DNA of 64,000 nt from Ornithinibacillus sp. 4-3 (GTDB lineage: Bacteria > Bacillota > Bacilli > Bacillales > Amphibacillaceae). The notes under the pieces are model-generated. The model ran no database searches and was not told the DNA's origin. It saw only the letters and a list, made by a program, of their open reading frames with translations. Positions 16,023 to 61,693 of this stretch are shown here, in pieces. A program made the position numbers and the translations under genes. Where the stretch lies: NCBI RefSeq assembly GCF_040958695.1, contig NZ_CP162599.1, forward strand, positions 406,001-470,000, read 5' to 3'. Each line of letters opens with the position of its first letter. Positions within the stretch are counted from its first letter, which is position 1.

Positions 16023-16210
16023 ATTGGTACCACCTTTACAGCGAGATTTTCCGTTCTTAGTTCTATATAATAATAATCTACTGAAGAATATTGCGTTTGC
16101 AAACTTTACATTATTCTTACAATTTAATATTGCCACGTTACGCCTGACGTGCTAATATATATCTTTCACAACATATTAAAACTATGAATATGACGATAGG
16201 AGTTATCTGC

Positions 16211-17473
16211 ATGGATAGTAGACAACGATATCAAATACTTTTTAATACAATAAATCAATATAATTCTGGAGAGAAAGGGATTACAAGGATTGCTTATTCT
16301 AATGATGAGCAAACATGTACACATAACTTTATTCATTTATGTAGTACGGAAAATCTGAGTATTCGTTTAGATGAATGTGGGAATGTCATTGCGCGTAGAG
16401 AAGGGAAAATTCCTGGATTACCTCCTGTGATGATTGGTTCACATTTAGATACGGTTTATCAAGGTGGAAAATACGACGGGGTTGTAGGTGTTACTGCAGC
16501 GCTGGAAGTTATTAGACGCTTGAATGAAAAAGAAATTGAAACAGATCATCCGATTGAAATTATCTCCTTTGCTTGTGAAGAATCCTCTCGCTTTGGTGTG
16601 TCTACAGTAGGAAGTAAAGCAATGGCAGGAATGATTGATAAGGAAAAATACCGTAATTTAACAGATCGCGATGGAGTGACAATGGAAAGAGCGTTCACTC
16701 TTTGTGCATTGGACTTCGATGTAGTTGATGAAGCAAGTCGTGTTGATGAAGATATTAAGGCGTTCTTTGAACTGCATGTGGAGCAGGGACCTATTCTAAT
16801 TAATGATGACTTGAAAATTGGTATTGTTACAGGAATTGCAGCACCTGCACGCTATGCGATTAAAGTGGAAGGAACGGCTTCCCATTCAGGTACAACGCCA
16901 ATGAGTATGCGTAAAGATGCTTTCTTAGGTGCTTCTGAAATTGCTTTACAACTAGAGGAAAAAGCAAAAGAAGAGAAAGAGCATGGAACAGTGGCAACAG
17001 TAGGTGTTGTAGATATTGAAGCAGGAGCAATGAATGTTGTGCCAGGAACTGTAGATATGAAGGTAGATATTCGCTCTACTTCTGTTGAATCAAGACAACG
17101 TGTGGTTAATGCATTATATGAAATGGTAAGTCAAATTGAATCAAAACGTAATTTGCATATTACAATAGAGGAAATTAGTGGAGAAGAGCCTGTTCTTTTA
17201 TCAGAGGAAATTAATCAGACATTAGAAGAAATTTGTCGTGAAAAGCAACTGCCTTATACTTTCATGCCGAGTGGGGCTGGACATGATGCGATGAATATGA
17301 CTCGTTTATGTCCAACTGCATTAATTTTCATACCATCTGTTGATGGGCTAAGTCACCATCCTGATGAGTATACAGAGTTAGATGATATTATGAATGGGAT
17401 TGACGTATTAGAAGAAGCAATTATTCGTTTTGCAAGCTCAGACCATCCTATAGAGGGATTAGTAGAAGCGTAA
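16211..17473 (+). CDS. M20-family amidohydrolase (N-carbamoyl-amino-acid hydrolase / allantoate amidohydrolase type)
   Basis: A zinc-dependent amidase of the hydantoinase/carbamoylase branch, 420 residues. Metal-site motifs appear in order: GSHLDTV near 85, the aspartate-bearing YDGVVGV near 97, CEESSRFG near 130, ELHVEQGP near 195, and HSGTTPM in the dimerisation domain near 233. The C-terminal histidine is in SHHPDEYT near 390. Such enzymes hydrolyse carbamoyl amides like N-carbamoyl amino acids, allantoate or ureidoglycolate. The ATG at 16211 has TAGGAG 8 bases upstream. The hydantoinase-like gene at 25.8-27.2 kb could supply its substrate, but the two are not adjacent. Exact substrate uncertain. 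Confidence 0.9.
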   Translation: MDSRQRYQILFNTINQYNSGEKGITRIAYSNDEQTCTHNFIHLCSTENLSIRLDECGNVIARREGKIPGLPPVMIGSHLDTVYQGGKYDGVVGVTAALEVIRRLNEKEIETDHPIEIISFACEESSRFGVSTVGSKAMAGMIDKEKYRNLTDRDGVTMERAFTLCALDFDVVDEASRVDEDIKAFFELHVEQGPILINDDLKIGIVTGIAAPARYAIKVEGTASHSGTTPMSMRKDAFLGASEIALQLEEKAKEEKEHGTVATVGVVDIEAGAMNVVPGTVDMKVDIRSTSVESRQRVVNALYEMVSQIESKRNLHITIEEISGEEPVLLSEEINQTLEEICREKQLPYTFMPSGAGHDAMNMTRLCPTALIFIPSVDGLSHHPDEYTELDDIMNGIDVLEEAIIRFASSDHPIEGLVEA

Positions 17474-25760: not shown

Positions 25761-25796
25761 AGCTTGGAGGAAATTTTTCCTCCAAGCTCTTTTAGT
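25761..25796. terminator. Bidirectional terminator between convergent genes
   Basis: AGCTTGGAGGA (25762-25772) pairs with TCCTCCAAGCT (25779-25789), then CTTTTAG. The hairpin reaches the stop region of the minus-strand hydantoinase-like gene. Confidence 0.82.
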
Positions 25797-27186
25797 TATT
25801 TGCTTCTATAAACTTTCCTGCTAGAATATCACCAACAACCCCATTTTTCATAATTGTTGTTCCATTAACAATGGTTGCAACAGGAGCAGCGTTTAATTGA
25901 AATCCGTCATAAGCAGTTACTTTACTCTTACTATGTAATTTCTCACGCTCAATGGTTGCTTGTTTATCCATATCCACAATGGTGAAGTCAGCATCTGCTC
26001 CAACTTGAAGAGCGCCCTTCTGTGGATAAACACCAAATTGCTTCGCTGGATTTTCAGAAAGCAAAGCTGCTACATGCTGTAAGGTAATTTTCTCTTCGGC
26101 AGCAGCATGAATCATTAATGGTGCCAGGGTCTCTACACCACACATGCCTGAAGGTGTGTTCCATAAATCACCATCTTTTTCTTCTGGAGTATGTGGTGCA
26201 TGGTCTGAGCAAACGATTGATATGGTACCATCAAGTATGCCTTTCCATAATGCATCCTGATCTTCTTGACGCTTAATTAACGGATATACTTTCATAGATG
26301 TACCGACTTTATCAAAGTCCTCATTCGTTAAAAATAAGTAATGTGGACATGTTTCTCCAGTAATAGGATAGCCTTCTGCTTGAGCTTGGCGAATAAGCTC
26401 GACCCCTTCAGCAGTACTAATATGAAGTACATGTAATCTTGCACCAGTAGCTTTTGCGAATTCGATTCCTGTTTGAATCGTAGTTGATTCGGCAATGTTT
26501 GGACGTGATTGTAGGACCGTCTCATAGTCAGCTTTGCCAGTACGCTTCATTTTCTTCGTTAAATAATTGATTAGGTCACTGTTTTCTGCATGGATGGATA
26601 TTGTTTTGCCAGTCTTTGCTACTTCTTCAAAAATTTGATATACTTCTCCATCATTACATGGTGGAATAACATTTTCCATTCCATCCTCGTAATTATAAAT
26701 AAGTGCAAAGGTATTTTTATCAATCGCATAACCCCAGAAATATTTATAGCCAATAACACCTAATTCATCTAATTCCTTAAGGTTTTCCATATTTAAATCA
26801 CCTAAGCAAATGCCCCAAACACCAAAATTAACATGTGCCTTACTTTGGAAATTTTTCACTTGTTTATGGAAGTTTTCTTTATTATTAATTGGTGGATTTG
26901 AATTTGGCATTTCAAAAATCGTAGTAATTCCGCCAGCCGCTGCAGCGCGAGTAGAATGGAAGAAATCTTCTTTATGTGTTGCGCCACCATCACGGGAGTG
27001 GACATGTGTATCTATTAATCCAGGTAAAACATATAATCCGGAAGCATCTGTGATTTCTTTTGCTTCTCCATTAAATGCTTCTTTAGAAATACGAGAGATT
27101 TTCCCGTCTTTAATGTAAATGTTTGCTTGATAGATTTCATTAGGTGTAACAATCTCACCATTTAAAATGACATGGTCCCAAGTCAA
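25792..27186 (-). CDS. Cyclic amidohydrolase (dihydropyrimidinase / allantoinase / dihydroorotase superfamily)
   Basis: A 464-residue binuclear-metal hydrolase that opens cyclic amide or ureide rings. Visible metal-site elements are DTHVHSRDGG near 60, the probable carboxylated lysine in GYKYFWGY near 150, the histidine in HAENS near 200, HVLHIST near 255, and the aspartate in SDHAPH near 325. GETCPHYLFLT near 280 is typical of allantoinases and hydantoinases. The TTG at 27186 has AAGGAG 8 bases upstream; the GTG three codons earlier is inside that site. It is divergent from the AAA+ regulator gene and heads the catabolic cluster. Allantoinase and hydantoinase cannot be told apart by eye. Confidence 0.9.
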   Translation of the reverse strand: MTWDHVILNGEIVTPNEIYQANIYIKDGKISRISKEAFNGEAKEITDASGLYVLPGLIDTHVHSRDGGATHKEDFFHSTRAAAAGGITTIFEMPNSNPPINNKENFHKQVKNFQSKAHVNFGVWGICLGDLNMENLKELDELGVIGYKYFWGYAIDKNTFALIYNYEDGMENVIPPCNDGEVYQIFEEVAKTGKTISIHAENSDLINYLTKKMKRTGKADYETVLQSRPNIAESTTIQTGIEFAKATGARLHVLHISTAEGVELIRQAQAEGYPITGETCPHYLFLTNEDFDKVGTSMKVYPLIKRQEDQDALWKGILDGTISIVCSDHAPHTPEEKDGDLWNTPSGMCGVETLAPLMIHAAAEEKITLQHVAALLSENPAKQFGVYPQKGALQVGADADFTIVDMDKQATIEREKLHSKSKVTAYDGFQLNAAPVATIVNGTTIMKNGVVGDILAGKFIEANN

Positions 27187-27249
27187 TGCTAACACTCCTT
27201 ATCTATTGCTTATTTGTACGATCCATTGTTTCTTTAGTATAATTTTTTT

Positions 27250-27403
27250 GATTGGGCAAATCTAAGTCTTTATGTACTTAAAGTAAGTCTAAAGAGACTT
27301 TTTAATTCGTTTTTTGTTTTGATAATATTAATTCAATGAAATTTCTTAAAATTAAAAAGACGACAGTTTACACTTCTCAAAAGATATTAATAATTGCCCA
27401 ATC
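27250..27403. promoter_or_regulatory. Symmetric inverted 10-mer pair in the divergent promoter region
   Basis: GATTGGGCAA occurs at 27250-27259 and its exact reverse complement TTGCCCAATC at 27394-27403. Each lies 61-63 bases before one of the two divergent start codons (27186 minus, 27465 plus). A third near match, ATTGGGAAA, is at 27428-27436. The arrangement suggests binding sites for the neighbouring regulator acting on both genes. No -24/-12 sigma-54 promoter was found in this region. Confidence 0.4.
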
Positions 27404-27464
27404 TATCATATGGTCGTCTAAGTTTTCATTGGGAAATGTTAATAGAAGAAAGGTGTGAACATTT

Positions 27465-28778
27465 ATGAAACAAGATATTTTTAATAAGCACTTTTTTAAA
27501 GAGATTTTAGATCATGCCACTTATGAAGTGTTTGTTACAGATTCTGATGGAGTAGTTTTGTATATCAACAATCTTTGCCAAGAGTTTTATGGAGTGGGTC
27601 CTGAAGAAATCATTGGAAAAAACGTAAGAGATCTCGAAGACGATTTATTTTATCCTTCTGCAACTTTACAAGTATTAAAATCGCATCAACATATTGAACT
27701 CATGCAAAAAACTGCAAAAGGAAAAAGGCTGTTTGTACAAGCAAAGCCGATATTTGCAGAAAATGGCGATCTCCTCCAGGTGATTAATTATACAAGAGAG
27801 CTTATTAATACGATGAAGCTTACAAAACAAATTAATTTACTTGAAGGACAGCTGAAGGAAAAGAGTAAGCCGCAACAAGATCCAAGCTTTTATAAATTGA
27901 TTGCAAAAAATGAAGTAATGAAAAACACAGTTGAATTAATGATGCGCTCAGCACGTACAGAAAAGCCAATTTTAATTCGTGGAGAAACAGGGGTAGGGAA
28001 GAGTTTAATGGCTCAACGAATTCATTATTTAAGTCACCGTAACCGTAGTCCATTTCGACAAATTAATTGCGCGAATTATTCAGAGACAGTCTTAGATAAT
28101 GGAGAAGAGCTAGTTCAATTAATGAATGGTGGTACGCTCTATCTAGATAACATCGATGAAATGACAATGGAAATGCAATCCAAACTTCTGCATTTCATTG
28201 AAAACAAACGAAACATCCCATTAGATGGCGGGCAAATCAACGCAGATATCCGCTTTGTATCCTCGACAAAGAAGGATCTTTTAGCTCTAGTTCGTGAAGG
28301 AAAGTTTCGCGAAGATCTCTACTACCGTTTAAATATTATACCCATAGAAATACCACCCTTACGTCAGCGCCAAGAGGATATCTACCCCTTAACAATGGAG
28401 TTTTTATCAAAGTTCAATGAAGAATATAGTCGTTCTGTAAGTATTTCTGCTTATGTAAGAAATGCATTTTATGAATATGAATGGCCTGGAAATATTCGTG
28501 AATTAGAAAATCTAATTGAAAGACTTGTGATTGTGACAGAGGGGTCTGAAGTAAAGTTAAGTCAATTACCATCTAGTGTGAAATTAGGCTCTATCTCAAA
28601 GGCAAAAACATTGCCAGAGAAAATGGCGCAGCTAGAGCAATCATTAATATTAGAAGCATACGATATTTACCACTCTAGCTATAAAGTGGCAGAAAGTTTA
28701 GGAATTAGCCAATCAGCAGCAACAAGAAAAATAAAAAAATACGTTAAATGGAACGAAAAAACACATTTTGAGGAATAA
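27465..28778 (+). CDS. PAS-AAA+-Fis regulator lacking the sigma-54 contact loop
   Basis: A 437-residue protein laid out like a sigma-54 activator: PAS domain (about 10-115), linker, AAA+ core and a C-terminal Fis-type helix-turn-helix (about 383-428, KVAESLGISQSAATRKIKKY). Walker A GETGVGKSL starts near 173. The stretch that should hold GAFTGA is missing: INCANYSETVLDNGEELVQL runs directly into MNGGTLYLDNIDE. The Walker B acidic pair DE is replaced by DN. The second region FREDLYYRLNIIPIEIPPLRQR is kept. It therefore cannot contact sigma-54 in the usual way and may not hydrolyse ATP. It probably senses a small molecule through PAS and acts with sigma-A polymerase, as TyrR-like proteins do. 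It is divergent from the cyclic amidohydrolase gene. Confidence 0.88.
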   Translation: MKQDIFNKHFFKEILDHATYEVFVTDSDGVVLYINNLCQEFYGVGPEEIIGKNVRDLEDDLFYPSATLQVLKSHQHIELMQKTAKGKRLFVQAKPIFAENGDLLQVINYTRELINTMKLTKQINLLEGQLKEKSKPQQDPSFYKLIAKNEVMKNTVELMMRSARTEKPILIRGETGVGKSLMAQRIHYLSHRNRSPFRQINCANYSETVLDNGEELVQLMNGGTLYLDNIDEMTMEMQSKLLHFIENKRNIPLDGGQINADIRFVSSTKKDLLALVREGKFREDLYYRLNIIPIEIPPLRQRQEDIYPLTMEFLSKFNEEYSRSVSISAYVRNAFYEYEWPGNIRELENLIERLVIVTEGSEVKLSQLPSSVKLGSISKAKTLPEKMAQLEQSLILEAYDIYHSSYKVAESLGISQSAATRKIKKYVKWNEKTHFEE

Positions 28779-28794
28779 AAATAACTTATTTACT

Positions 28795-28850
28795 TATAGT
28801 GTGTGTTCAAAAAGGTCATTTTTGTTGGACTTTTCGAACATCCTCTTATA
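28795..28850 (+). repeat. Palindromic repeat with TGTTCAAAAAG arms, copy 1
   Basis: A 56-base element starting TATAGTG and ending CTCTTATA. TGTTCAAAAAG (28804-28814) faces CTTTTCGAACA (28830-28840), so it can form a hairpin. The same element recurs at 41493-41546, and single half-elements occur at 55361 and 63897. It lies between the regulator and the following amidohydrolase gene. Confidence 0.85.
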
Positions 28851-28933
28851 TGAACATACGATTAATCTTAATATTAGTCAGGAATCATATCCGACTAATG
28901 GAAAATATGCCATTTTTACAAGGAGGAATTAGC

Positions 28934-30358
28934 TTGAATGTTGATACGTTAATTATCAATGCAGATTTATTTACGATGCAAGGAGAAGGGGTAGGCTATG
29001 TTGACTGTGGTGCAGTAGCGATTGATAAAGGAAGAATTATCGAAGTTGGATCAACAGAAGCATTACAAAAAGAGTTTAATGCCGAAGAAACGATTGATGC
29101 GACAAATATGATGGTTTTACCAGGTTTTGTCGATGCACATATGCATACATACTGGGCGATTCTACGCGGTGTGGCACAGGATACACATAACTGGATGCTA
29201 AGAGGAGTAGAGCCGTTTCGACCATATTTAACCGATGAAAATATGACTGCTGGAGCAAAAATGAATGTTTTGGAAGGATTAGCTACTGGAACAACTACAT
29301 TTTGTGATTACACATTCCCGGCATTAGATTCGGCGAAATTCTTCCATGAAATTGGTGTTAGAGCTTGTGTTACTGGATTTGTTCGTGAAGTTCCAAAGGT
29401 ATTAGATAAATTAGAAGTTGGTGAGCTATATCCTTTTGATCCTAGCTTTGGAGAATATACATTAAACCGAAATCTAGAGCTTATTGAAAAGTGGCATGGT
29501 AAAGATAATAACCGAATTCAAGCATTACTTGGACCTCAGGGGCCAGACTTTATGAGTGCTGAATTTATGAAAAAGGTTAAGAATCTAGCAACAGAAAAAG
29601 ATGTAAAAATACATATGCATGTAGCACAATCCACTCGTGAAACAGAACAGATTCTGAAGCGATATAATAAGCGTTCGATTGCTTTACTTGATGAATTAGG
29701 ATTCTTAGATGAATCATTAATTGCTGTCCATTTGACAGATGCAACAGAAGAAGAAGTGAAATTACTTGTAGATCGTAATGTCTCCATGGTTGTTTGTTCT
29801 GGTTCTATTGGAGTTATTGCAGGTAGAGTACCACCAGCCTATTCCTTTATTAAAGCAGGTGGAAATGTTGGTTTAGGTTCTGACCAAGCATCTGGTAATA
29901 ACTGTAACCAAGTAATTAATGAAATGAAGTTAACAGCATTATTTAATAAAGTGAAATATACGGATCCTGAAGTAATCCCTGCTTGGAAGGCTTTAAGAAT
30001 GGGAACGATTGAAGGTGCTCGTGCAGTAGGACTTGGGGATGAAGTTGGATCACTAGAAAGAGGTAAGAAAGCAGATATTATCTTTGTTGATCTAGGTACA
30101 AGAACGATGCAGCCTGTGATTAAAAAACCAATGCGAAATCATGTACCGAATCTAGTATATTCAGCTAGAGGAGACGAGATTAGAAGAGTCATGGTAGATG
30201 GAAAAACATTATTCTTAAATGATGAGTATTTAACGGTGAATGAAGCGGAAATCATGAGTGATGCCCAAAAGTTTGCTACAGAATTAACAGACCAAGTTCG
30301 AGAAGAAGATTTTAAGAATACTAAGAGCTATGAACTAATGCAAAATGGAAAATTATAA
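28934..30358 (+). CDS. Amidohydrolase of the deaminase/chlorohydrolase group (TrzN/SAH-deaminase-like)
   Basis: A 474-residue single-metal TIM-barrel amidohydrolase. The ligand set is visible: VDAHMHTYW near 66-72, HMHVAQS near 230, VHLTDAT near 265 and the aspartate in GSDQASGNN near 315. Relatives deaminate or dechlorinate N-heterocycles (S-adenosylhomocysteine/methylthioadenosine deaminases, guanine-type deaminases, triazine hydrolases). The usual SNN after that aspartate is GNN here, hinting at a distinct subgroup shared with the paralogue at 34.8 kb. The TTG at 28934 has AAGGAGG 7 bases upstream; an ATG-led extension to 28799 runs through the palindromic repeat and is rejected. Substrate unknown. 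Confidence 0.9.
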   Translation: MNVDTLIINADLFTMQGEGVGYVDCGAVAIDKGRIIEVGSTEALQKEFNAEETIDATNMMVLPGFVDAHMHTYWAILRGVAQDTHNWMLRGVEPFRPYLTDENMTAGAKMNVLEGLATGTTTFCDYTFPALDSAKFFHEIGVRACVTGFVREVPKVLDKLEVGELYPFDPSFGEYTLNRNLELIEKWHGKDNNRIQALLGPQGPDFMSAEFMKKVKNLATEKDVKIHMHVAQSTRETEQILKRYNKRSIALLDELGFLDESLIAVHLTDATEEEVKLLVDRNVSMVVCSGSIGVIAGRVPPAYSFIKAGGNVGLGSDQASGNNCNQVINEMKLTALFNKVKYTDPEVIPAWKALRMGTIEGARAVGLGDEVGSLERGKKADIIFVDLGTRTMQPVIKKPMRNHVPNLVYSARGDEIRRVMVDGKTLFLNDEYLTVNEAEIMSDAQKFATELTDQVREEDFKNTKSYELMQNGKL

Positions 30359-30532
30359 ATAGACCTTTGATGTTACTAAAACATCTATCAAGGTTCTCTA
30401 CTATAGGCGAGAGCGATCCCTTGTTCTAAGTAAGAGCATAGAACTGACAATCTATCTATCAAAAATTCTTTGATGGATATGATAGAAGGAAAAAATGATA
30501 ATAGTCTAAGAAATAACGGAGGGAAAAGATAT

Positions 30533-31276
30533 ATGAGTATGAATCAGAAAGGTTTTGAAATTTTTGCTAATACGTTTTCAGTGGCGGGGATTTGTGAGAA
30601 AACAGGAGCTGTAGGAGCAATTGTTACTACAAGTGCACCTGCAGTAGGGGCCCGTGTACCAAAATGCAAAAAAGGTAAAGGTGTAGTTTTATCACAGAAC
30701 ATGACAGATCCAAGATTAGCAAGTGCTGGAATGGCGATGTTAGATCTCGGATATGATGCAGAGTCAGCTGTTAATGCGATGAAAGCGGTAACACCATATC
30801 CGGAGTATCGTCAGCTTGCTGCAGTAGATATGTCAGGTAAATCTTCTGCTTATACAGGAGAGAAAGCATTTGGACCTTATCAAGGGCAATTTTGTGGTGA
30901 GTATGTAGCTTCTATTGGAAACTATTTATGTACTCCAGAAATTCCCGAAGCAATGGGTAAACATTTTCTAGAAAAGGCAGATTTACCACTTGCAGAGCGC
31001 CTTATCTCTTCTATTGAGGTAGGTTTTGAACTAGGTGGAGAAATCGGCCCAGAACATTCTATCGCATTAGTTGTTTACACAGATTACGAGTTCCCATTAA
31101 TTGATCTAAGAGCAGATTATTGTGATGATCCTTTAGCAGAGTTAAAGAGATTATGGGGAGTTTGGAAAGAGGAAGCAAAAATATATGAAACAAATGCAGT
31201 AGAACCACCTAAACGTTACAAAGAAAGAGAAGAATACTACGAATCTTTACACGCAATGCGTAAGGAGAAAGAATAA
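30533..31276 (+). CDS. DUF1028 family protein (putative Ntn-hydrolase)
   Basis: A 247-residue DUF1028 protein. Diagnostic parts are NTFSVAG near 13, SAPAVGARVP near 35, VLSQNMTDPRLASAGMAML near 55, and the C-terminal DLRADYCDDPLAELKRLWGVW near 208. The family has an N-terminal-nucleophile hydrolase fold and often sits beside amidases and oligopeptide transporters; no substrate is established. GGAGGG lies 9 bases before the ATG. The conserved Thr14 is not second after Met as in most relatives, so 13 residues would have to be removed for it to act as nucleophile. A weak hairpin (30363-30394) separates it from the upstream amidohydrolase gene, and the two are probably co-transcribed. Confidence 0.88.
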   Translation: MSMNQKGFEIFANTFSVAGICEKTGAVGAIVTTSAPAVGARVPKCKKGKGVVLSQNMTDPRLASAGMAMLDLGYDAESAVNAMKAVTPYPEYRQLAAVDMSGKSSAYTGEKAFGPYQGQFCGEYVASIGNYLCTPEIPEAMGKHFLEKADLPLAERLISSIEVGFELGGEIGPEHSIALVVYTDYEFPLIDLRADYCDDPLAELKRLWGVWKEEAKIYETNAVEPPKRYKEREEYYESLHAMRKEKE

Positions 31277-31311
31277 ATATTCCAATCTCCATTTTTAATG
31301 ATGTTAGATAG

Positions 31312-31345
31312 TATCCAGAAAGCCTAATTAGGGGTTTTCTGGATA
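31312..31345 (+). terminator. Hairpin between the DUF1028 gene and the first binding-protein gene
   Basis: TATCCAGAAA pairs with TTTTCTGGATA (31335-31345), with an inner CCT/AGG. T-residues do not follow immediately, so read-through or an mRNA-stability role is possible. Confidence 0.5.
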
Positions 31346-31388
31346 GCTTATCATAAATCTTTTTTATAAAAAGAAAGGGGAGGACATA

Positions 31389-32999
31389 ATGAAAAAGCAA
31401 TATTTATTATTGTTAGCTACTATTTTTGCCTTGTTTTTAATAGTAGCAGGTTGTAGCTCTGAATCAGAGGATGATAAAGATTCAACGACTGATGATTCAG
31501 GAGAAACAGCTGAAAATGAGGATGAGCAAGAAGAAGCAAAGGGAGGAGAATTACGAGTTGCATTATCTGCCCAACCTGCTAACCTCGATCAACCTATGTC
31601 AACAAATACATCAACTAGAGATGTATCTCGACTGATTTTTGAGACCCTACTTACTACTAACTCCAAATTCGAACCAGTACCAATGCTTGCAGAATCATAT
31701 GATATCAGTGAGGATGGATTAGTTTATACATTCAAATTAAGAGAGGGCATTAAATTCCATAATGGAGAAGAAATGGATTCTGAAGATGTAGTTGCTTCAA
31801 TGGAACGGTGGTTAGAGGTATCTACCATCACAGGTTCTATTTTTGAAAACTCAAAATTTGAAGCAACAGATAAATATGTAGTGGAATTAACATTGCAACG
31901 GCCTTATGGGCTAGCAGCTGAAACATTAGCTTCTACAAAAATGGCCCCTGCAATTATGCCAAAAGAAATAATTGAAAATGTATCTGATGCAGGTGTAACA
32001 GAATATATCGGTACAGGTCCATTTAAGATGGAAGAATGGAGAACAGATCAATATATTCATTTAACAAAATTTGAAGATTATCAGGCTTTAGATGAAGAGC
32101 CAGACGGTTTGGCAGGGAAGAAGGAAGCGCTAGTAGATGATATTTACTTCGAATTTGTTTCGGATGCAGCAACACGTTTAGCAGGATTACAAACAGGAGA
32201 ATATGATGTTGGTTATGCATTTCCATTTGATAATTATGAAATGCTAGATGCTGATGAAGAAACAGAGTCTATATTAGAAGGAGCTGGAGAGCTTGTCCTA
32301 ATTTATAACAAATCAGAAGGTTTAGCCTCTAATTTTAAAATGAGACAAGCAATTAATGCAGCTTTAGATATTGAAAAGATTTTACTAACGGCATTTACGA
32401 ATGAAGATTTATATGTAATGAGTTCAAGCTATATGAATCGTTATATTGAGAAATGGGTTAGCGAAGCTGGATCAGAATTCTGGAATATTAATGATCCGGA
32501 ATTAGCGAAAGAATTGCTAGAAGAAGCGGGATATGATGGGGAAGAGTTTATCCTAATGACAACAAGAGATTATCCGCATATTTATAATGCGGCAGTAGTT
32601 GTTCAAGAGCAATTATCAAACATTGGAATGAATGTAAGTTTAGAAGTGTATGATTGGCCGACATTAGCGGATAAACAAAATAAGCCAGGGGAGTGGGATG
32701 CATTTGTTAATGGATTAACACCTGTAACTACCCCTCCTCAGTTAAACCATATTAATCCAACCTATTCACGCGGGGTTCAAAGTGATGAAATTCTAGATAT
32801 GATGAAACAGTTAGAAGAAGCACCAACTTTCGAAGAATCGAGAGAAATTTGGGATGAAATACAGGGATACGCTTGGGAGCATCATTTACCTGTTACCAAC
32901 TTTGGTGGTTATCATTCCCTTTATGGGGCTAGAACAAATGTATCTGGATTCCATACATTCCATGGCGGAGTATTTTGGAATGTATCTGTTGATAAGTAA
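31389..32999 (+). CDS. ABC transporter solute-binding lipoprotein, family 5 (OppA/DppA-like)
   Basis: A 536-residue extracellular binding protein with a lipoprotein signal (LIVAGC, cysteine near 22) and an acidic linker. The SBP family 5 body contains GGELRVALSAQPANLDQP, the lobe motif YTFKLREGIKFHNGEEMDSEDVVAS, and GTGPFKMEEW. Family 5 proteins bind oligopeptides, nickel complexes, opines or glycosides. No permease or ATPase gene is adjacent, so it must use a transporter encoded elsewhere. A close paralogue follows directly. AAAGGGGAGG precedes the ATG. By context the ligand may be the compound degraded by the flanking amidohydrolases. Confidence 0.93.
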   Translation: MKKQYLLLLATIFALFLIVAGCSSESEDDKDSTTDDSGETAENEDEQEEAKGGELRVALSAQPANLDQPMSTNTSTRDVSRLIFETLLTTNSKFEPVPMLAESYDISEDGLVYTFKLREGIKFHNGEEMDSEDVVASMERWLEVSTITGSIFENSKFEATDKYVVELTLQRPYGLAAETLASTKMAPAIMPKEIIENVSDAGVTEYIGTGPFKMEEWRTDQYIHLTKFEDYQALDEEPDGLAGKKEALVDDIYFEFVSDAATRLAGLQTGEYDVGYAFPFDNYEMLDADEETESILEGAGELVLIYNKSEGLASNFKMRQAINAALDIEKILLTAFTNEDLYVMSSSYMNRYIEKWVSEAGSEFWNINDPELAKELLEEAGYDGEEFILMTTRDYPHIYNAAVVVQEQLSNIGMNVSLEVYDWPTLADKQNKPGEWDAFVNGLTPVTTPPQLNHINPTYSRGVQSDEILDMMKQLEEAPTFEESREIWDEIQGYAWEHHLPVTNFGGYHSLYGARTNVSGFHTFHGGVFWNVSVDK

Positions 33000-33032
33000 C
33001 TCGTTTTTTAATAAAATAAAATGATTTTAATA

Positions 33033-33066
33033 GCAAGCAAGGGATTTCTGTATCCTTGCTTGTTCT
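33033..33066 (+). terminator. Hairpin between the paired binding-protein genes
   Basis: CAAGCAAGGGAT (33034-33045) pairs with ATCCTTGCTTG (33052-33062), followed by TTCTCCTT. Confidence 0.6.
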
Positions 33067-33128
33067 CCTTAAATCATATATGTAATTCTTTACAAACAAG
33101 ATAAAACACAAAGAGAGTGGGAAAAATT

Positions 33129-34709
33129 TTGAAAATGAAATCAAAGTTTTTACAAGTATTGATGTTGTTATTAGTTCTTACCTTAGTTGCATGTAACTCT
33201 GATTCTTCTAAAAATGAAGAATCAAATACAGAAAATGAAAATGTTGATTTAGACGGTGAAATTAGAATCGCGTGGAATGGTCAGCCTCCAGTGCTCGATC
33301 CACATATTAGTATTTCTGATATTATTGCAAACACAATGCGTCATGTATATGATACTTTATTGACAATCGACTCTGAGTATAATGTGAAACCATCCTTAGC
33401 AGACTCTTGGGAGGTTAGTGAGGACGGTAAAACATATACCTTTAAATTAAGAGAAGGTGTAACATTCCATAATGGGAAGGAATTAACCTCTGAAGATGCT
33501 GTAGCTTCAATGAACCGCTGGAAGGATTCATTGGGAAGTAGAGGAGTATTTGCAGATGCAATTTTTGAAGAAGTTGATAAATATACGCTAGAATTACGTT
33601 TACCTGAACCATTATCAGTTGCATTAACTGTTTTAGCCTATTCTAATGGTGGATTTGCTGCGATTATGCCTAAGGAAGTTATTGAAAATGCACCAGAAGA
33701 AGGTATCAATGAGCATATTGGTACAGGACCCTTCCAATTTGTAGAATGGAAACAAGATCAATATATTCATTTAACAAGATATGATGATTATGTGCCAAGA
33801 GAAGAACCTGCAGATGGTTTATTTGGTAAGAAAGAAGCTTTAGTGAAGGATCTTCGTTACTTCTTTGTTCCAGATGCTTCTACACGTGAAGCTGGTATTC
33901 TATCTGGAGAATATGATTTTGCTCATGCTATTCCATATGATAGTGCAGAAAGATTGGAAGAATCTGATGGTGTTGTTAACTATACATATCCAGGAGCATT
34001 CCTAAGCCTTCATTTCAATAAAAAGCAAGGAATTTTCCAGGAGAAAGAAGCTCGTCAAGGAGTAGCAAAAATGCTTGAGTTAGAAAGTATTTTAAAAGCA
34101 GGATATGTTGATCCTAAATACTATATTCTAAATCATAATACGATGATGGAATATCAACATACACAATGGTATAGTGATGCTGGTAAAGACAAGTATAATA
34201 TTAATGATCCAGAACAAGGTGTGGAGCTATTAAAAGAAGCGGGTTACGATGGAGAGGAATTAACTCTATTAACCACTCGTGATTATGATGACCAATATTA
34301 TGGTGCAGTTGTAATCAAGGAACAATTAGAACAAGCAGGTGTTAAAGTCAATTTGGAAATCTATGATTGGCCAACACTACTTGGAAAAGTTTATGAAGAA
34401 GATGCCTATGACATGTTCTTAATGGCAAATTCCATTGTTGCCGAACCATCCTCAAGCCCATACTTTAATCCAGATTATTCTGGTTGGCCAAATGATCCAG
34501 AAATGGACGAGCTAAGAATGGAATTTAGAGGAAAGATGACAAAAGAAGAAGCAATGCCAGTTTATGATGAATTACAAGAATGGCTCTATGATTATGTACC
34601 TGCAGTAAAAATTGGTGATTATAACCGTGTATCTTCAGCACGAGATACGATAGAGAATTTCCAGTATTTAGATGGTGTTATTTTCTGGAATGTAACAAAG
34701 AGTGAATAG
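33129..34709 (+). CDS. Second ABC solute-binding lipoprotein, family 5 (tandem paralogue)
   Basis: A 526-residue paralogue of the preceding protein. Both share the order DxxVASMxRW, GTGPFxxxEWxxDQYIHLT, PDGLxGKKEALV and the C-terminal VxFWNVxxxx. The lipobox is LVAC, with the cysteine near residue 22. The TTG at 33129 is preferred, 7 bases after GTGGG; the ATG at 33135 is an alternative. The two binding proteins differ most in the middle lobe, so they may bind related but different ligands for one unseen transporter. It is followed by a terminator and the convergent second amidohydrolase gene. Confidence 0.92.
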   Translation: MKMKSKFLQVLMLLLVLTLVACNSDSSKNEESNTENENVDLDGEIRIAWNGQPPVLDPHISISDIIANTMRHVYDTLLTIDSEYNVKPSLADSWEVSEDGKTYTFKLREGVTFHNGKELTSEDAVASMNRWKDSLGSRGVFADAIFEEVDKYTLELRLPEPLSVALTVLAYSNGGFAAIMPKEVIENAPEEGINEHIGTGPFQFVEWKQDQYIHLTRYDDYVPREEPADGLFGKKEALVKDLRYFFVPDASTREAGILSGEYDFAHAIPYDSAERLEESDGVVNYTYPGAFLSLHFNKKQGIFQEKEARQGVAKMLELESILKAGYVDPKYYILNHNTMMEYQHTQWYSDAGKDKYNINDPEQGVELLKEAGYDGEELTLLTTRDYDDQYYGAVVIKEQLEQAGVKVNLEIYDWPTLLGKVYEEDAYDMFLMANSIVAEPSSSPYFNPDYSGWPNDPEMDELRMEFRGKMTKEEAMPVYDELQEWLYDYVPAVKIGDYNRVSSARDTIENFQYLDGVIFWNVTKSE

Positions 34710-34721
34710 AAAGCATATGAA

Positions 34722-34770
34722 AGAGGCATCGCAGGGAAATTTGACATTTTCCTGTGATGCTTCTTTGTTA
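34722..34770. terminator. Terminator at the end of the forward catabolic genes
   Basis: The segment 34722-34739 (AGAGGCATCGCAGGGAAA) pairs with 34747-34764 with three wobbles. It is shared by the convergent amidohydrolase gene. Confidence 0.8.
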
Positions 34771-34780
34771 TATATTTATA

Positions 34781-36208
34781 TTACAGTAGCCCTTCCTTAA
34801 CCATTTTTAAAATATCACTATCCGCTTTTAAAATATCGTCTGTCGATAATTTAACAACTTTCTCAGCAGCGGCTTGAGCCTCTGTTAGTGCCGTTTTCTC
34901 ACAAACAGTTAGAACTTCTCGATCATTCATAATGATTTTCCCATCAATCATCACAAGATCTACTTCACTACCATTCGCAGAGTAAACGAGGTTTGGTACA
35001 ATATTTCGAATCGGATAATTTAAGACTGGGAAAAATGCCGGTGTATCTAAATTTACTAAAATAATATCTGCTTTCTTTCCATCCTCTAGTGAACCAATTT
35101 CATTTTCCATTCCTAATACTTTAGCAGATTCAATTGTTGCCATTCGTAGTGCCTGTGTTGCATTAAAAATTCTTGGATCTTGATATTTCACTTTGTTTAA
35201 AATGGCAGCAAACTTCATTTCATTAAACATATTATTACAGTTGTTTCCAGCGGCTTGATCTGAGCCAAGGCAAGCTGTACCACCAGCATCAATAAATGTT
35301 TGCACTGGAGTTACAATACCATCAATAATCCCAATACTTCCAGCACAGTAAGTCATTTTCGCTCCACTTTTTGCGATTTTTATCGTTTCTTCTTCTGTAG
35401 CTTCTGTTAGGTGGACTGCAATTAATCGTTCATTTAACATACCCAGCTCTTCTAAAAATGGAATGGAGCGTTTTTGATAACGTTTTTCCATTTGTAATGT
35501 TTCCCTATCACCTTGAGCTACGTGCATATGTATTAATGTATCTAATTTCTCTGCTTGGTTTTGGACCTCCTTTAGCAGTTCGATGCTTAGCATATCTGGA
35601 CCTTGAGGACCCAGCATTACATTAATACGACCATCATCTTTCAGGTGCCATTCATGATAAAGTTTTAAAGCTCTTTCATATTTTTCCTGACCGAGTGCAG
35701 GATCAAATGTATACAGATCAGTAACAGGATTATCACCTAGATTATTTGGTAGCTCATTCACTGTTTCAGCTACTTTTGCTCGGGCACCGATTTTCGAATA
35801 GTTTTCAACAAGCTCATTCATGTGGAGATCATAATCACCAAAAGTTGTTGTACCAGCCTTAATTCCTTCAATGATATTTACTAAAGACCCTTTTTTCGTT
35901 TCTTTCACATCGATGTGCTTTTTAAATGGCCATAAACCCTTTTGCATCCAGTGTGACATATCTTGTGCAACACCTCTGAACATAGCGAGTCCAGTGTGGA
36001 TATGAGCATCAATAAGCCCAGGCATTATTAATTTATTGCCAGCATCAATAAGTGTCTCTGCCTGATAAGCTGCAAGTATTTCATCTTTTATGCCGACTTT
36101 AATAATTTTATTTCCCTGTACTGCGACTGCGCCATTCTGAACGTATCCAACACCTTTTCCTTTCATTGTTAACATATGATTACTACTAATGATGTAATCT
36201 ACCTTCAA
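34781..36208 (-). CDS. Second deaminase/chlorohydrolase-type amidohydrolase (paralogue)
   Basis: A 475-residue paralogue of the enzyme at 28.9 kb, alike along its whole length by eye. It has DAHIHTGL near 66, a GPQGPD stretch near 198, HMHVAQGDRET near 226, VHLTEAT near 262, and GSDQAAGNN near 312 with the metal aspartate. Like its paralogue it has GNN where SAH-deaminase-type enzymes usually have SNN. The start is TTG at 36208 with AAAGGGG about 9 bases upstream. It closes the catabolic cluster on the minus strand. Two diverged copies around paired binding proteins suggest two substrates or two steps of one pathway. Confidence 0.9.
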   Translation of the reverse strand: MKVDYIISSNHMLTMKGKGVGYVQNGAVAVQGNKIIKVGIKDEILAAYQAETLIDAGNKLIMPGLIDAHIHTGLAMFRGVAQDMSHWMQKGLWPFKKHIDVKETKKGSLVNIIEGIKAGTTTFGDYDLHMNELVENYSKIGARAKVAETVNELPNNLGDNPVTDLYTFDPALGQEKYERALKLYHEWHLKDDGRINVMLGPQGPDMLSIELLKEVQNQAEKLDTLIHMHVAQGDRETLQMEKRYQKRSIPFLEELGMLNERLIAVHLTEATEEETIKIAKSGAKMTYCAGSIGIIDGIVTPVQTFIDAGGTACLGSDQAAGNNCNNMFNEMKFAAILNKVKYQDPRIFNATQALRMATIESAKVLGMENEIGSLEDGKKADIILVNLDTPAFFPVLNYPIRNIVPNLVYSANGSEVDLVMIDGKIIMNDREVLTVCEKTALTEAQAAAEKVVKLSTDDILKADSDILKMVKEGLL

Positions 36209-36350: not shown

Positions 36351-36395
36351 TTGGCTGGTTTAAGCCCAGTACAATACTGAACTCAAACCAGCCAA
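36351..36395 (-). terminator. Terminator of the MscS-like gene
   Basis: TTGGCTGGTTT (36351-36361) pairs perfectly with AAACCAGCCAA (36385-36395). On the minus strand it runs into a T-rich tail, fitting the channel gene ending at 36471. Confidence 0.85.
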
Positions 36396-58083: not shown

Positions 58084-59745
58084 GTGTCAAAAACTAAAGT
58101 TCTTTTAGTAGCGATTTTATTTCTTTTTTCATTATTAATGGTGGCTTGTTCTGCTGATCCAGATGCAAAATTAAACAAAGACGAAGAAAATAATCAGCCA
58201 TCAGATAATAACTCTGGATCAACAGCAGTGAATAGTGAGACAAAACAAGGTGGAGATTTAGTAATTGCTTCAACATCTAATCCAACGATGTTTAACGAGT
58301 TTTATGCTTCGGATTCTCCAAGTAACACAATCGCGAAATTTATTTATGATAGCTTAATTAAAATTGATGAAAATTTACAACCAATACCATCCTTAGCTGA
58401 AAGCTGGGAATACAATGAAGACGAAATGAAATGGGTTTTTCATTTAAGAGAAGATGTAACATGGCATGATGGTGAACCATTTACAGCAAAAGACGTAGAA
58501 TTTACATACAACATTCCTAAACATGAAGACTATACAGGGCCTAGAACCTCCTTCTTTGCCCCAGCTGAAAAAATTGAAGCAGTTGATGATTATACAGTAG
58601 AAATTACATTTAATGAACCAGATGCAAAATTTTTACCTATTGCATTAGCATTTAATGTTTTACCCGAACATATTTTAGGCGATATTCCAGTTGCAGATTT
58701 AGGAACAGCAGATTTTAATACGAAAAACCCTATCGGTACAGGTCCATTTAAGTTTGATGAATGGAAGCAAGGACAGCATGTTCGTTTAGTAGCGAATGAT
58801 GATTATTTTGATGGTCGTCCAAATTTTGATACTATCACTTCAAAAATTGTGACAGATGATAACGCAATGCTGGCTCAATTTGAAGCAGGAGATATTGATT
58901 TTATTGACGTATCAGATGAAAATTTTAATGTAGCTCAAAAGCTTGCTGATGAAGGGAAAGCAGAATTATTAGTTGTTCCAGCAACAAACTATAACTATAT
59001 TGGATATGATTTAACAAATCCGTTGTTTGAAGACAAACGCGTACGTCAGGCATTAACACATGCTTTAAATCGGGAAGCAATTGTTGAAAATGTGCTTGAC
59101 GGAAATGCCATTGTTTCTGATTCTCCAGGACTACCATTTAGCTGGGCATATAATGAAGATGTACCTAAATTTGAATATGACCCGGAAAAAGCAAAAGCAT
59201 TATTAGAAGAAGCTGGATGGACAGATTCAGATGGGGATGGTGTTTTAGATAAAGATGGTCAGGATTTTGAATTTGAATTAAAGACGAATCAAGGGAATAA
59301 GGTTCGTGAGAAATTATTGGTTATTGCTCAAGAGCAATGGGGAGAAATTGGTGTTAAAGTAACACCAAAAGTTGTTGAATTTAGTGCGTTAAGTGCTGAA
59401 TTGAATGATAAGAATTTTGAGGCATATATTCTGGGATGGGGACTACGTGATGATCCAAGCTTATCTCCATATTTTCACTCAGAAGAAATAGAAAGCGGAT
59501 TTAACCGAGTATCATATTCTAACCCAGAATTGGATGAAGTAATGGAAAAAGGGGATAGCATTATGGACCCTGATGAGCGTGTTCAATACATTGAAGAATC
59601 ACAAGCGATTGTAGCTGAAGATCAGCCATACACATTCTTATATTACCCTAATAGGAACTTGCTTTATAGCAAACAAATTAAAAATGTATTAAGTCACTCA
59701 GGTACAGCTTATTTTGAAATTTATAAATGGTATAAAGAAGACTAA
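58084..59745 (+). CDS. Oligopeptide-type ABC solute-binding lipoprotein (family 5)
   Basis: A 553-residue extracellular binding lipoprotein (lipobox MVAC, cysteine near 22, then an Asn/Asp/Ser-rich linker). Family 5 features include GGDLVIASTSNPTMFN, WVFHLREDVTWHDGEPFTAKDVEFTY and GTGPFKFDEWKQGQHVRL. LLEEAGWTDSDGDGVLDKDGQDF near 375 is a common segment in DppA/AppA types and could bind calcium. GTG start with AAGAGGGG upstream. It is followed by two permease genes, so unlike the binding proteins at 31-35 kb it has a clear membrane partner. Confidence 0.94.
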   Translation: MSKTKVLLVAILFLFSLLMVACSADPDAKLNKDEENNQPSDNNSGSTAVNSETKQGGDLVIASTSNPTMFNEFYASDSPSNTIAKFIYDSLIKIDENLQPIPSLAESWEYNEDEMKWVFHLREDVTWHDGEPFTAKDVEFTYNIPKHEDYTGPRTSFFAPAEKIEAVDDYTVEITFNEPDAKFLPIALAFNVLPEHILGDIPVADLGTADFNTKNPIGTGPFKFDEWKQGQHVRLVANDDYFDGRPNFDTITSKIVTDDNAMLAQFEAGDIDFIDVSDENFNVAQKLADEGKAELLVVPATNYNYIGYDLTNPLFEDKRVRQALTHALNREAIVENVLDGNAIVSDSPGLPFSWAYNEDVPKFEYDPEKAKALLEEAGWTDSDGDGVLDKDGQDFEFELKTNQGNKVREKLLVIAQEQWGEIGVKVTPKVVEFSALSAELNDKNFEAYILGWGLRDDPSLSPYFHSEEIESGFNRVSYSNPELDEVMEKGDSIMDPDERVQYIEESQAIVAEDQPYTFLYYPNRNLLYSKQIKNVLSHSGTAYFEIYKWYKED

Positions 59746-59763
59746 AGCAAAAGTATTAGAAGA

Positions 59764-59798
59764 GGTTGGGCAAATCCTAGTATTTGTCCGACCCTTTT
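59764..59798 (+). terminator. Partial terminator between binding protein and permeases
   Basis: GGTTGGGCAAAT (59764-59775) pairs with ATTTGTCCGACC (59782-59793) with one wobble and is followed by TTTT. Such intercistronic hairpins allow more binding protein than permease to be made. Confidence 0.7.
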
Positions 59799-59827
59799 CC
59801 CATAAATATTGAACAGGAGAGAAGGCA

Positions 59828-60781
59828 ATGATTAGCTACATAATGAGGAGAGTTTTATTAACTATTCCATTATTAATTGGTATTTCCATGGTTTCGTTTG
59901 GCATCATTCATTTAGCACCTGGAGATCCAATTTCTACAATGATGGACGATGTTGGTGTTACTCCTGAAGATAAAGAACGTTTTATGGAAGAGTATGGATT
60001 AAATGATCCAATTCCAATTCAGTATATTCGATGGTTTGGAAATGTAATTCAAGGTGATTTTGGTACGTCCTTAATTAATCAAGGAATTCCTGTTAGTGAG
60101 TTAATTTTAGCTCGATTACCAAACACTTTAATGTTAATGGGAGTTTCTTCACTTATTGCCATATTAATTGCAATCCCTATTGGAATTTGGTCTGCGCGAA
60201 AGCCATATACCCTAAGAGATTACTCTATTACAACATTTTCTTTCTTAGGAATTGCTACGCCTAACTTCTGGTTAGGACTAGTATTATTAATTTTCTTATC
60301 TGTACAGTTAGGTTGGTTCCCTTCTGGTGGTGTAGCTACATTAAATGCTCCATTTAGTATTTGGGATCGAATTCATCATTTAATATTACCGGCTTTTGTA
60401 CTTGCTACTGCAGATATGGCTTCACTTACAAGGTATACACGATCTAGTATGATGGATGTATTAAGTCAAGATTATATTCGAACAGCAAGAGCAAAAGGTT
60501 TTAAAGAGAACAAAGTCGTATATAAACATGGCTTGCGAAATGGTTTAATTCCTGTTATTACGATAATTGGTTTAATGATCCCTTCTTTTATCGGAGGGGC
60601 TGTTGTAACAGAGAAAATTTTTAGTTGGCCAGGAATAGGGCTATTATTCATTGATGCAACATTTCAACGAGATTATACATTAATCATGGCAATTACAATG
60701 ATTTCTGCAACGTTAGTTGTTATAGGGAATTTAATTGCTGATATATTATATGCCGTGTTTGATCCGAGAATTGAGTACTAA
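59828..60781 (+). CDS. Peptide-type ABC permease, OppB/DppB family
   Basis: A 317-residue permease with six membrane segments. The N-terminus MISYIMRRVLLTIPLLIGISMVSFGIIHLAPGDP is the OppB/DppB signature. The coupling (EAA) loop DYIRTARAKGFKENKVVYKHGLRNGLIPVIT near 215 and the C-terminal FDPRIEY are typical. GGAGAG precedes the ATG. It forms a heterodimer with the permease encoded 12 bases downstream. Confidence 0.95.
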   Translation: MISYIMRRVLLTIPLLIGISMVSFGIIHLAPGDPISTMMDDVGVTPEDKERFMEEYGLNDPIPIQYIRWFGNVIQGDFGTSLINQGIPVSELILARLPNTLMLMGVSSLIAILIAIPIGIWSARKPYTLRDYSITTFSFLGIATPNFWLGLVLLIFLSVQLGWFPSGGVATLNAPFSIWDRIHHLILPAFVLATADMASLTRYTRSSMMDVLSQDYIRTARAKGFKENKVVYKHGLRNGLIPVITIIGLMIPSFIGGAVVTEKIFSWPGIGLLFIDATFQRDYTLIMAITMISATLVVIGNLIADILYAVFDPRIEY

Positions 60782-60793
60782 GGAGGGATAAAA

Positions 60794-61693
60794 TTGTCGT
60801 TATCACAGCCGGATATAGCTATGCAAGGGGAAGCGAAATATAAAACTGACTCATTAGGAAAAATTGCCTTACAAAAATTCTTGAAAAATAAATTAGCTGT
60901 AATTGGAGCAATAATTATTATTTTAATTATTGCATCAGCGATTATTGTACCTTGGATAACAGAGTATAATCCAGATAAACAGGATTTACTTAATCAATTA
61001 TCTCCTCCTAGTAAAGAACATCTATTAGGAACGGATGATTTAGGAAGAGATGTGTTTTCAAGACTATTATATGGATCAAGAGTTTCACTGTCGGTTGGAT
61101 TTCTAGCAGTTGCTGGAATGATGATTATTGGCACGGTCATTGGAGCAATTGCAGGTTATTTTGGTGGGATTTTTGATTCGGTACTAATGCGATTTGTAGA
61201 TGTTATTATTTCATTTCCACAAATCTTCTTACTCATTACATTGATTGCTGTTTTACAACCAAGTTTAAACACATTGATTATTGTATTTGCGCTTTTCAGT
61301 TGGACATCTACAGCAAGGTTGGTACGAGGCGAATTCTTATCATTAAGAAATCGGGAATTTGTATTAGCTGCTAGAACAATGGGAATTAGAACATGGAAAA
61401 TTATTTTTAGTCATATTTTACCAAATGCAATGGGACCAGTAATCGTTTCTGCAACATTGCAAATAGGTTATGTAATTCTTGCTGAATCAACATTGAGTTA
61501 TTTAGGGCTTGGTGTCCAACCGCCGACCCCGAGTTGGGGGAATATGCTTCAAAGTGCACAAGATTATAATATTATGTTAAATGCATGGTGGTATCCATTA
61601 TTTCCTGGATTCATGATCTTAATAACGATATTATCGTTTAACTTTGTTGGTGATGGTCTACGAGATGCACTTGATCCAAAGGTTAGAAAGTGA
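60794..61693 (+). CDS. Peptide-type ABC permease, OppC/DppC family
   Basis: A 299-residue permease. A cytoplasmic N-terminus and first helix precede [32 protein letters not shown] near 72, the OppC signature. The EAA loop [30 protein letters not shown] is near 190 and [14 protein letters not shown] closes the protein. TTG start with AAGGAGGG about 7 bases before. No ATPase gene follows; the next gene is convergent. The energising OppD/OppF-type subunits must be encoded elsewhere, as for the two orphan binding proteins in this window. Confidence 0.95.

Follow-up and report, generated by a model that had tools for sequence, protein, structure and literature searches.

A patchily distributed gene cluster of Ornithinibacillus sp. 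4-3 for the probable conversion of a nitrogen-containing ring to a common amino acid

Introduction

In the fermentation of orotate by Clostridium oroticum, for which no match was obtained in the open literature searched, a dihydroorotate dehydrogenase, a dihydroorotase and a ureidosuccinase act in succession, and hydantoinases, which likewise open nitrogen rings, are in industrial use. In the portion of the source drawn on here, the natural function of hydantoinases is called unclear, and hyu clusters are described as combining a hydantoinase with an N-carbamoylase, and sometimes a racemase, in one cluster (PMC3546935). The reductive uric acid pathway of Escherichia coli, as outlined in part of its published description, uses the Amidohydro_1 protein SsnA together with YgfK to yield ureidomethyl-hydantoin, the ring of which is opened by HyuA, with the M20 protein YgeY acting later (PMC12507026). 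The present work concerns a gene cluster located in a window of 64,000 nucleotides (the whole stretch of DNA analysed, C1:406001-470000) of the 3.69 Mb single-contig genome of Ornithinibacillus sp. 4-3, hereafter the host. This patchily distributed cluster, the components of which are listed below, probably serves to convert a compound with a nitrogen-containing ring to a common amino acid.

Results

Gene content of the cluster

The open reading frames and protein families reported for this cluster in the initial annotation are present, and Pfam and NCBIfam profile matches agree with them, with two start sites being shifted. Scores are given here and below as bits/model cut-off.

25792-27195, minus strand: HYD, cyclic amidohydrolase (dihydroorotase/hydantoinase-like ring opener), PF01979 Amidohydro_1
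27465-28778, plus strand: REG, regulator with PAS, Sigma54_activat and HTH_50 domains (Pfam)
28934-30358 (open reading frame from 28799), plus strand: AMH1, HxHxxQ amidohydrolase (PF01979-type, Amidohydro_1; Pfam, start revised), proposed entry enzyme
30533-31276 (open reading frame from 30470), plus strand: DUF1028 protein, putative Ntn-hydrolase, PF06267 180.5/26.2 bits, gathering score passed
31389-32999, plus strand: SBP1, family-5 solute-binding lipoprotein, PF00496 241.7/32.4, FLIVAGC lipobox identified by eye
33117-34709, plus strand: SBP2, family-5 solute-binding lipoprotein, PF00496 237.4/32.4, LTLVAC lipobox identified by eye
34781-36208, minus strand: AMH2, second HxHxxQ amidohydrolase, of a separate clade, Amidohydro_1
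16184-17473, plus strand: M20 carbamoylase, proposed final step (N-carbamoyl amino acid to amino acid), TIGR01879 417/204

Both revised starts lie inward and agree with the N-termini of homologues: that of AMH1 is TTG 28934, behind the ribosome-binding site AAGGAGGAA, and that of the DUF1028 gene is ATG 30533, behind GGAGGG, which leaves 13 residues in front of the Thr of the TFS motif. Three further features of the first description were borne out, in that no permease or ATPase open reading frame lies between SBP1 and SBP2, REG is divergent from HYD across a gap of 269 bases, and the GSDQxxGNN motif of the amidohydrolases recurs as G[ST]DQxxGNN in 119 of the 120 homologues listed.

Conserved neighbourhoods of AMH1 relatives

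Gene neighbourhoods were compared at 76 AMH loci (74 of 79 from one scan plus two from a further AMH1 search), with neighbours being counted within 6 kb. At each of the four named loci of the AMH1 clade (L009-L012) a family-5 binding protein, an M20 protein and a HYD relative are encoded near AMH, their identities to the window proteins being 60-69% for AMH1, 59-63% for HYD and 47-49% for M20. The H. wakoensis locus (L009) comprises genes for an M20 protein, AMH, a binding protein, OppB, OppC and Opp ATPase proteins (by eye), as well as for a further AMH copy, an OCD/mu-crystallin protein that falls under every NCBIfam cut-off among the matches listed, M20, HYD and a PGA_cap protein. JMAK1 and two Geomicrobium genomes (L010-L012) carry genes for DUF1028, AMH, a binding protein, M20 and HYD, which an IclR-like gene (by eye) precedes. 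The neighbourhood conservation that had been proposed as a check was thus found in part: AMH1, HYD, M20 and the binding protein occur together at all four loci and DUF1028 at three of them, with the AAA+ regulator absent from all four. The earlier suggestion that a cyclic amide is hydrolysed in successive steps is supported.

A second association was observed in gut Clostridia of one lineage (L049, L057, L058, L075), in which AMH is accompanied by an M20 carbamoylase, a hydantoin racemase-like gene and a hydantoinase, with an aminotransferase gene in front and an NhaC-type or NhaC-like transporter gene counted at three of the four loci; families were scanned on L049 or L075 and assigned to the others by clustering. 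The hydantoinase of L075 passes its model (505.7/393 bits), and a further locus (L067) carries AMH with a hydantoinase and a racemase-like gene. Across the 76 loci, a HYD-like gene was found at nine, an M20-carbamoylase-like gene at eight, a racemase-like gene at seven, an NhaC-like gene at 14 and an ABC ATPase gene at 23. HYD-like and M20-carbamoylase-like genes occur together at eight loci versus 0.95 expected if they were independent, kinship being ignored. The hydantoin association of the AMH family is therefore real and confined to a minority of the family.

An NhaC-like transporter gene directly precedes AMH relatives in Bacilli and Clostridia (L028, L030, L032, L039, L060, L061, L073 and L075; Pfam on L032 only).

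HYD, the M20 protein and their relatives

HYD passes TIGR00857 (multifunctional dihydroorotase, 353/279), an assignment at subfamily level only, as well as the allantoinase model TIGR03178 (394/357.85), and lies far under the other allantoinase models PRK06189 (386/631) and PRK08044 (313/688). Its best solved relative is the L-hydantoinase 1gkr, at 288 bits versus about 250 for three allantoinases. A role as the biosynthetic dihydroorotase was rejected because the host carries a separate copy, 34% identical, at C1:1430580. At E <= 1e-120, HYD relatives occur in 25 of 397 genomes of the order, host included, the other 24 being all outside the host's family. One 68%-identical relative among Bacilli sequences is filed under Ralstonia pickettii, a name that is doubtful.

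Twenty of 28 places with a HYD relative were examined (L127-L146), and the genes recurring there encode M20 (33-52% identity; 14 loci), PyrD-like (11), PyrK-like (10), nitroreductase-like (10), PGA_cap-like (10) and TRAP-type (8) proteins and a PucR-like regulator (8). These labels derive from clustering; PyrD, PyrK-like, nitroreductase and regulator were model-checked on L129 only, and PGA_cap and TRAP were assigned by eye. Every one of the 11 PyrD-like loci also holds an M20 protein with 46-52% identity, and the PyrD-like protein of L129 passes PRK07259 and TIGR01037 (366/269 bits for its model). At L132, genes for an aspartate dehydrogenase (212.3/206.55) and an aspartase (761/681) lie between M20 and HYD, with Opp-type genes after HYD. 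None of the genes that flank HYD in the window encodes a dihydroorotate dehydrogenase. Trees of HYD and of M20 do not cleanly split AMH-type from PyrD-type loci; in the HYD tree, P0123/P0181 and P0014/P0188 were assumed to stand beside cassette genes solely because their longest contigs are equally long (13715 and 7551 bases, respectively).

Judged by these gene contexts, the HYD and M20 half, which is widespread without AMH, looks like a dihydroorotase with a ureidosuccinase. Because PyrD-like neighbours occur at 11 of the 20 loci, and aspartase and aspartate dehydrogenase genes at one, the products would most likely be N-carbamoyl-aspartate and then aspartate. The simplest reading is that a single pair of enzymes opens the ring and removes the carbamoyl group, with aspartate as the end product, and that this pair may be fed either by PyrD/PyrK reduction or by AMH1.

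The PyrD-like loci (L127-L129, L135-L141, L143), in which M20, PyrD-like and HYD genes are mostly joined by a PyrK-like gene and often by nitroreductase, PGA_cap-like, TRAP-type and PucR-like genes, look like clusters for the catabolic breakdown of orotate or a related pyrimidine in Bacilli. The CapA/PGA_cap-type protein, named for capsule synthesis, recurs near HYD both at L009 (15174-16460) and at the 10 of L127-L146 counted above (by eye).

The M20 gene at 16.2 kb had been suggested as a possible last step, and this appears likely, as it is the closest of the host's four carbamoylase-type M20 genes (a weak fifth match was also detected) to the cassette M20s: its identity to the M20 proteins beside HYD at L009-L012 is 47-49%, that of the other three host copies being 32-38%. 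A 14-row tree pairs the window protein with the M20 of the H. wakoensis cassette (support 99/96), and with further M20s added (21 rows) it remains within the 18-row group that they form, to which none of the other host copies belongs (93/99). It passes PRK09290.1-5 'allantoate amidohydrolase' (471/399) and fails the AllC model TIGR03176 (293/598).

Active site, phylogeny and distribution of AMH1 and AMH2

AMH1 and AMH2, which share 47% identity, were aligned with the best 120 of 1806 homologues (from 7998 scored candidates) to give 122 rows, and compared with five solved chains, two of which are the same protein or near-identical. The metal ligands H114, H116, H274, H311 and D362 (HxH, H, H, D) are kept in all 122 rows. 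In deaminases the Glu of HxHxxE is catalytic and the His of the HAP motif pairs with it; both residues are present in all five solved chains and retained in E. coli SsnA, to which AMH1 is 21% identical. The Glu position is occupied by Gln in 122/122 rows, and the His position by Gln in 111 (including both window copies), His in ten and Lys in one. Furthermore, D250 is invariant across the AMH rows where the five solved chains carry Tyr. The Gln/Gln pair may shift AMH chemistry away from nucleoside deamination.

Both copies miss the cut-off of the SsnA model (144.5/455.5 for AMH1, 137.6/455.5 for AMH2), and the best 25 NCBIfam matches of each copy are all under cut-off (e.g. PRK15493 with 150/779 for AMH1). 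S-adenosylhomocysteine (SAH) deaminase activity of both copies, which had been named beforehand as an outcome that would speak against a catabolic cluster, is unlikely because the deaminase Glu is Gln in every row.

In a 98-row tree, AMH1 groups with sequences of Halalkalibacter and Geomicrobium, and those that group with AMH2 are from Oceanobacillus, Ureibacillus and others. Since the two fall in separate clades, a local (tandem) duplication is ruled out, and the original description of these amidohydrolases as duplicated does not hold for the pair. At E <= 1e-60, neither the one genome of the same genus nor any of the 35 of the same family that were searched yielded an AMH1 match, and at E <= 1e-165 relatives occur in three of 397 order genomes, host included, of which the other two belong to one genus; all three also carry HYD. 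Among plasmid records, only CP070234.1 (Dolichospermum), predicted to be conjugative, carries an AMH1-like gene, 49% identical, at E <= 1e-60. No description of this AMH family in association with hydantoinases was found, by title or abstract opening, among the matches listed in the open literature searched.

Transport genes

SBP1 and SBP2 are 40-42% identical. The tail domain of Opp ATPases is matched 19 times in the host genome, and nine Opp stretches were examined. The set at C1:2.613-2.617 Mb, near which SBP1-like binding proteins are encoded, is 61% (OppB) and 68% (OppC) identical to the H. wakoensis cassette, the next best among the sets compared being 43% and 46%. The Opp pair located within the window itself (59.8-61.7 kb) is more distant (43% and 37%). 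On these similarities, the set at 2.61 Mb is the likeliest partner that SBP1 and SBP2 may share.

One flank of this Opp set (L156, host C1:2605000-2622000) is formed by glycolysis genes, the other by genes for an M20 peptidase and a transposase. In the window, genes for a family-5 binding protein, OppB and OppC (58084-61693) are followed by a sulfatase-family gene, with no ATPase gene after.

The DUF1028 protein

The DUF1028 protein has 55 matches, of which 43 (its own sequence included) are at least 52% identical; those with a name carry names of Bacilli except for one (Rubrobacter), and that of JMAK1 bears the doubtful name 'major pilin protein FimA'. At E <= 1e-50 it occurs in five of 397 order genomes and in one of the 398 genomes of a phylum sample, both counts including the host. 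A second context was found at three loci (L107 5107-17435, L108 5680-16462 and L109 5268-9579), where a flavin reductase, an HpaB-like monooxygenase and an FAD-synthetase-like protein are encoded (Pfam on L107 only; L108 and L109 by eye), and the cluster resembles a two-component-monooxygenase ring-cleavage route. A RidA-like gene precedes DUF1028 in L107 and L109, and an M20 carbamoylase-like gene follows in L107 and L108, both of which also have class III aminotransferase and aldehyde dehydrogenase genes. DUF1028, for which the open literature searched gave no match, thereby gains two gene contexts, each holding an M20 carbamoylase-like gene.

Regulator and intergenic elements

REG, first described as a non-canonical AAA+ regulator, indeed retains Walker A (GETGVGKS) and lacks 17 alignment columns including the GAFTGA loop, and its Walker B is altered from LDE to LDN (DE to DN). 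The host encodes sigma-54. No -24/-12 promoter was found at up to two mismatches in the divergent gap (27196-27464), and matches across the whole window number 32 versus 27.7 expected. Sigma-54 control by REG was rejected on account of the missing loop and the missing site. The remaining elements are as follows.

27250-27259 (GATTGGGCAA) and 27394-27403 (TTGCCCAATC), no strand: candidate operator, a 10-bp perfect inverted repeat and the only two exact copies in the window
31312-31345, plus strand: strong hairpin with U-rich tail in the DUF1028/SBP1 gap, likely terminator or attenuator (sequence; fold z -5.1 for 31305-31370)
34720-34766, plus strand: terminator-like hairpin between the convergent SBP2 and AMH2 genes (fold z -8.0)
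25761-25788: terminator-like hairpin before the end of HYD
36351-36395, minus strand: terminator-like hairpin upstream of AMH2, at the end of the 36471-37700 gene

The case for the inverted repeat as an operator is weak because it was chosen after the fact, and no copy of GATTGGGCAA within one mismatch lies upstream of M20 or AMH2. At the window end, a Bacillaceae-1 RNA (63939-64000, RF01690, 50.7 bits) is truncated.

Discussion

Proposed pathway

Gene families, active-site substitutions and co-localisation being observed, we infer each reaction of the following route from them. SBP1 and SBP2 would capture the compound and share the remote Opp permease/ATPase set for its uptake. AMH1, judging from its neighbours and active site, would then hydrolyse a bond so as to release a cyclic ureide, for instance L-dihydroorotate or a 5-substituted hydantoin, and would in this way take the place of the dehydrogenase as cyclic-ureide source. 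Ring opening by HYD would yield an N-carbamoyl amino acid, which the gene contexts of HYD relatives suggest is most likely N-carbamoyl-L-aspartate, and from this the 16.2-kb M20 enzyme would strip the carbamoyl group. AMH2 probably handles a related compound, the DUF1028 protein may perform an accessory step, and REG would work without sigma-54. We regard such a hydrolytic route from a ring compound to an amino acid, probably aspartate, as about evenly poised between right and wrong; the HYD and M20 pair is fairly well supported, and AMH1 as entry enzyme is plausible but unproven.

Several observations weigh against this route. Three of the four AMH1-clade loci (L010-L012) are close kin, at 67 of the 76 AMH loci no HYD-like gene lies within 6 kb, and none of the 24 AMH2 clade-mates has one within that distance, some of these loci being short; at L082, of the AMH2 clade, a 30% HYD match lies beyond it. 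Because most AMH loci and all AMH2 clade-mates thus lack a nearby HYD-like gene, the hydantoin link may be limited to few lineages. HYD does not depend on AMH1, since it occurs in 25 of 397 order genomes versus three for AMH1-like genes, host included, and it passes an allantoinase model (TIGR03178). The M20 gene lies 8 to 11 kb from the cluster with unrelated genes between, the 21-row M20 tree did not resolve its pairing with H. wakoensis, and another M20 encoded in the H. wakoensis cluster shares only 36% identity with the window copy. Finally, the Opp argument comes from one species with the query genes being split, and the PyrK-like protein of L129 is under its cut-off (184/314).

Alternative explanations

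It is possible, if rather unlikely, that there is no single pathway, and that AMH1, AMH2, HYD and DUF1028 are separate salvage genes assembled by horizontal transfer. Their rare and patchy occurrence (three of 397 order genomes for AMH1 and five for DUF1028, host included) fits such an origin, as do the strong hairpin between DUF1028 and SBP1, the opposite strand of AMH2 and HYD, and a regulator not conserved with the cluster; however, AMH1, HYD and the binding protein are co-localised in about three lineages (window included), with M20 nearby in two and DUF1028 in two.

More doubtful is an allantoin route, in which HYD would be an allantoinase and M20 an allantoate amidohydrolase, with AMH1, AMH2 and DUF1028 acting on other compounds. 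The cut-offs passed by HYD (TIGR03178) and M20 (PRK09290.1-5) are in line with this, and many named HYD relatives are called AllB, but HYD is far under PRK06189 and PRK08044 and nearest to a solved L-hydantoinase, M20 fails the AllC model, and HYD relatives lie beside PyrD-like genes at 11 of 20 loci and beside aspartase at one.

Very improbable is a pathway of the reductive uric acid type, with AMH1 as an SsnA analogue that converts a reduced purine to a hydantoin, followed by HYD and M20 as in E. coli. SsnA, HyuA and YgeY represent the same enzyme classes in the part of the description drawn on here (PMC12507026), yet AMH1 reaches less than a third of the SsnA cut-off and shares 21% identity with E. 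coli SsnA, in which HxHxxE is retained, and no MoCoBD_1 (XdhD-type) gene is present in the host genome (YgfK, YgeW and YgeX homologues were not searched for); the pathway proper was judged unlikely on the SsnA score, the active site and the missing XdhD-type gene. That AMH1 and AMH2 are SAH or 5'-methylthioadenosine (MTA) deaminases, as automatic names would have it, is hardly tenable, in that family-level similarity and the name 'S-adenosylhomocysteine deaminase' on a 69%-identical relative are outweighed by the replacement of Glu in 122/122 rows and of its paired His by Gln in 111/122, with the best 25 NCBIfam matches per copy under cut-off.

Possible substrates and significance

As to what AMH1 might act on in the proposed route, a highly speculative suggestion, on which the present data bear only through the order of the enzymes and through transporters of the amino-acid or peptide type next to some relatives, is that HxHxxQ amidohydrolases act on 2-(ornithinylamino) cyclic guanidines, from which they would release ornithine. 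Removal of ornithine from the five- and six-membered argininosuccinate anhydrides would leave 5-carboxymethylhydantoin and L-dihydroorotate. If the suggestion were true, these products would be the rings that HYD should open, and two enzymes with two binding proteins would fit two ring isomers; the Clostridial enzymes would take arginine glycation products (MG-H1, for example) as substrates and supply 5-methylhydantoin to the racemase, hydantoinase and carbamoylase, and a natural hydantoin source and a salvage route for damaged arginine would follow. Neither MG-H1 with hydantoin nor argininosuccinate anhydride gave a match in the open literature searched.

Independently of this suggestion, the presence of AMH relatives with a hydantoinase, racemase and carbamoylase in some lineages points to a possible natural source of cyclic ureides, and the SAH deaminase name is questioned for the 120 closest AMH homologues, all of which carry Gln.

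Comparison with known systems

As in the E. coli reductive uric acid pathway, according to the part of its description drawn on here, an Amidohydro_1 enzyme of the TRZ/ATZ kind would help to make a hydantoin upstream of a hydantoinase and an M20 enzyme (PMC12507026); unlike in that pathway, AMH1 lacks the Glu of SsnA and scores far under its model, and the host has no XdhD-type gene. The hyu clusters differ in that no upstream hydantoin-supplying amidohydrolase is named for them in the portion of the source drawn on here (PMC3546935). HYD and M20 also match the ergothioneine proteins ErtD (333/650) and ErtE (408/520) of NCBIfam, both under cut-off; NF058537, guessed to be an ergothioneine model, proved to be another family, and ErtC gave no match in the open literature searched.

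TyrR-type regulators act without contacting sigma-54, and REG resembles them in having an AAA+ domain without the GAFTGA loop and a PAS domain in front, but differs from TyrR in its score (205/576 bits) and in its altered Walker B.

The orotate fermentation of C. oroticum is matched by the HYD and M20 relatives beside PyrD-like genes at 11 of 20 loci, in keeping with its order of steps. Compared with those loci, the window has AMH1 and DUF1028 in place of PyrD/PyrK-like genes, and Opp-type binding proteins where eight of the 20 HYD loci have a TRAP-like transporter (by eye). As a form of cyclic-ureide catabolism, the cluster would be a new variant.

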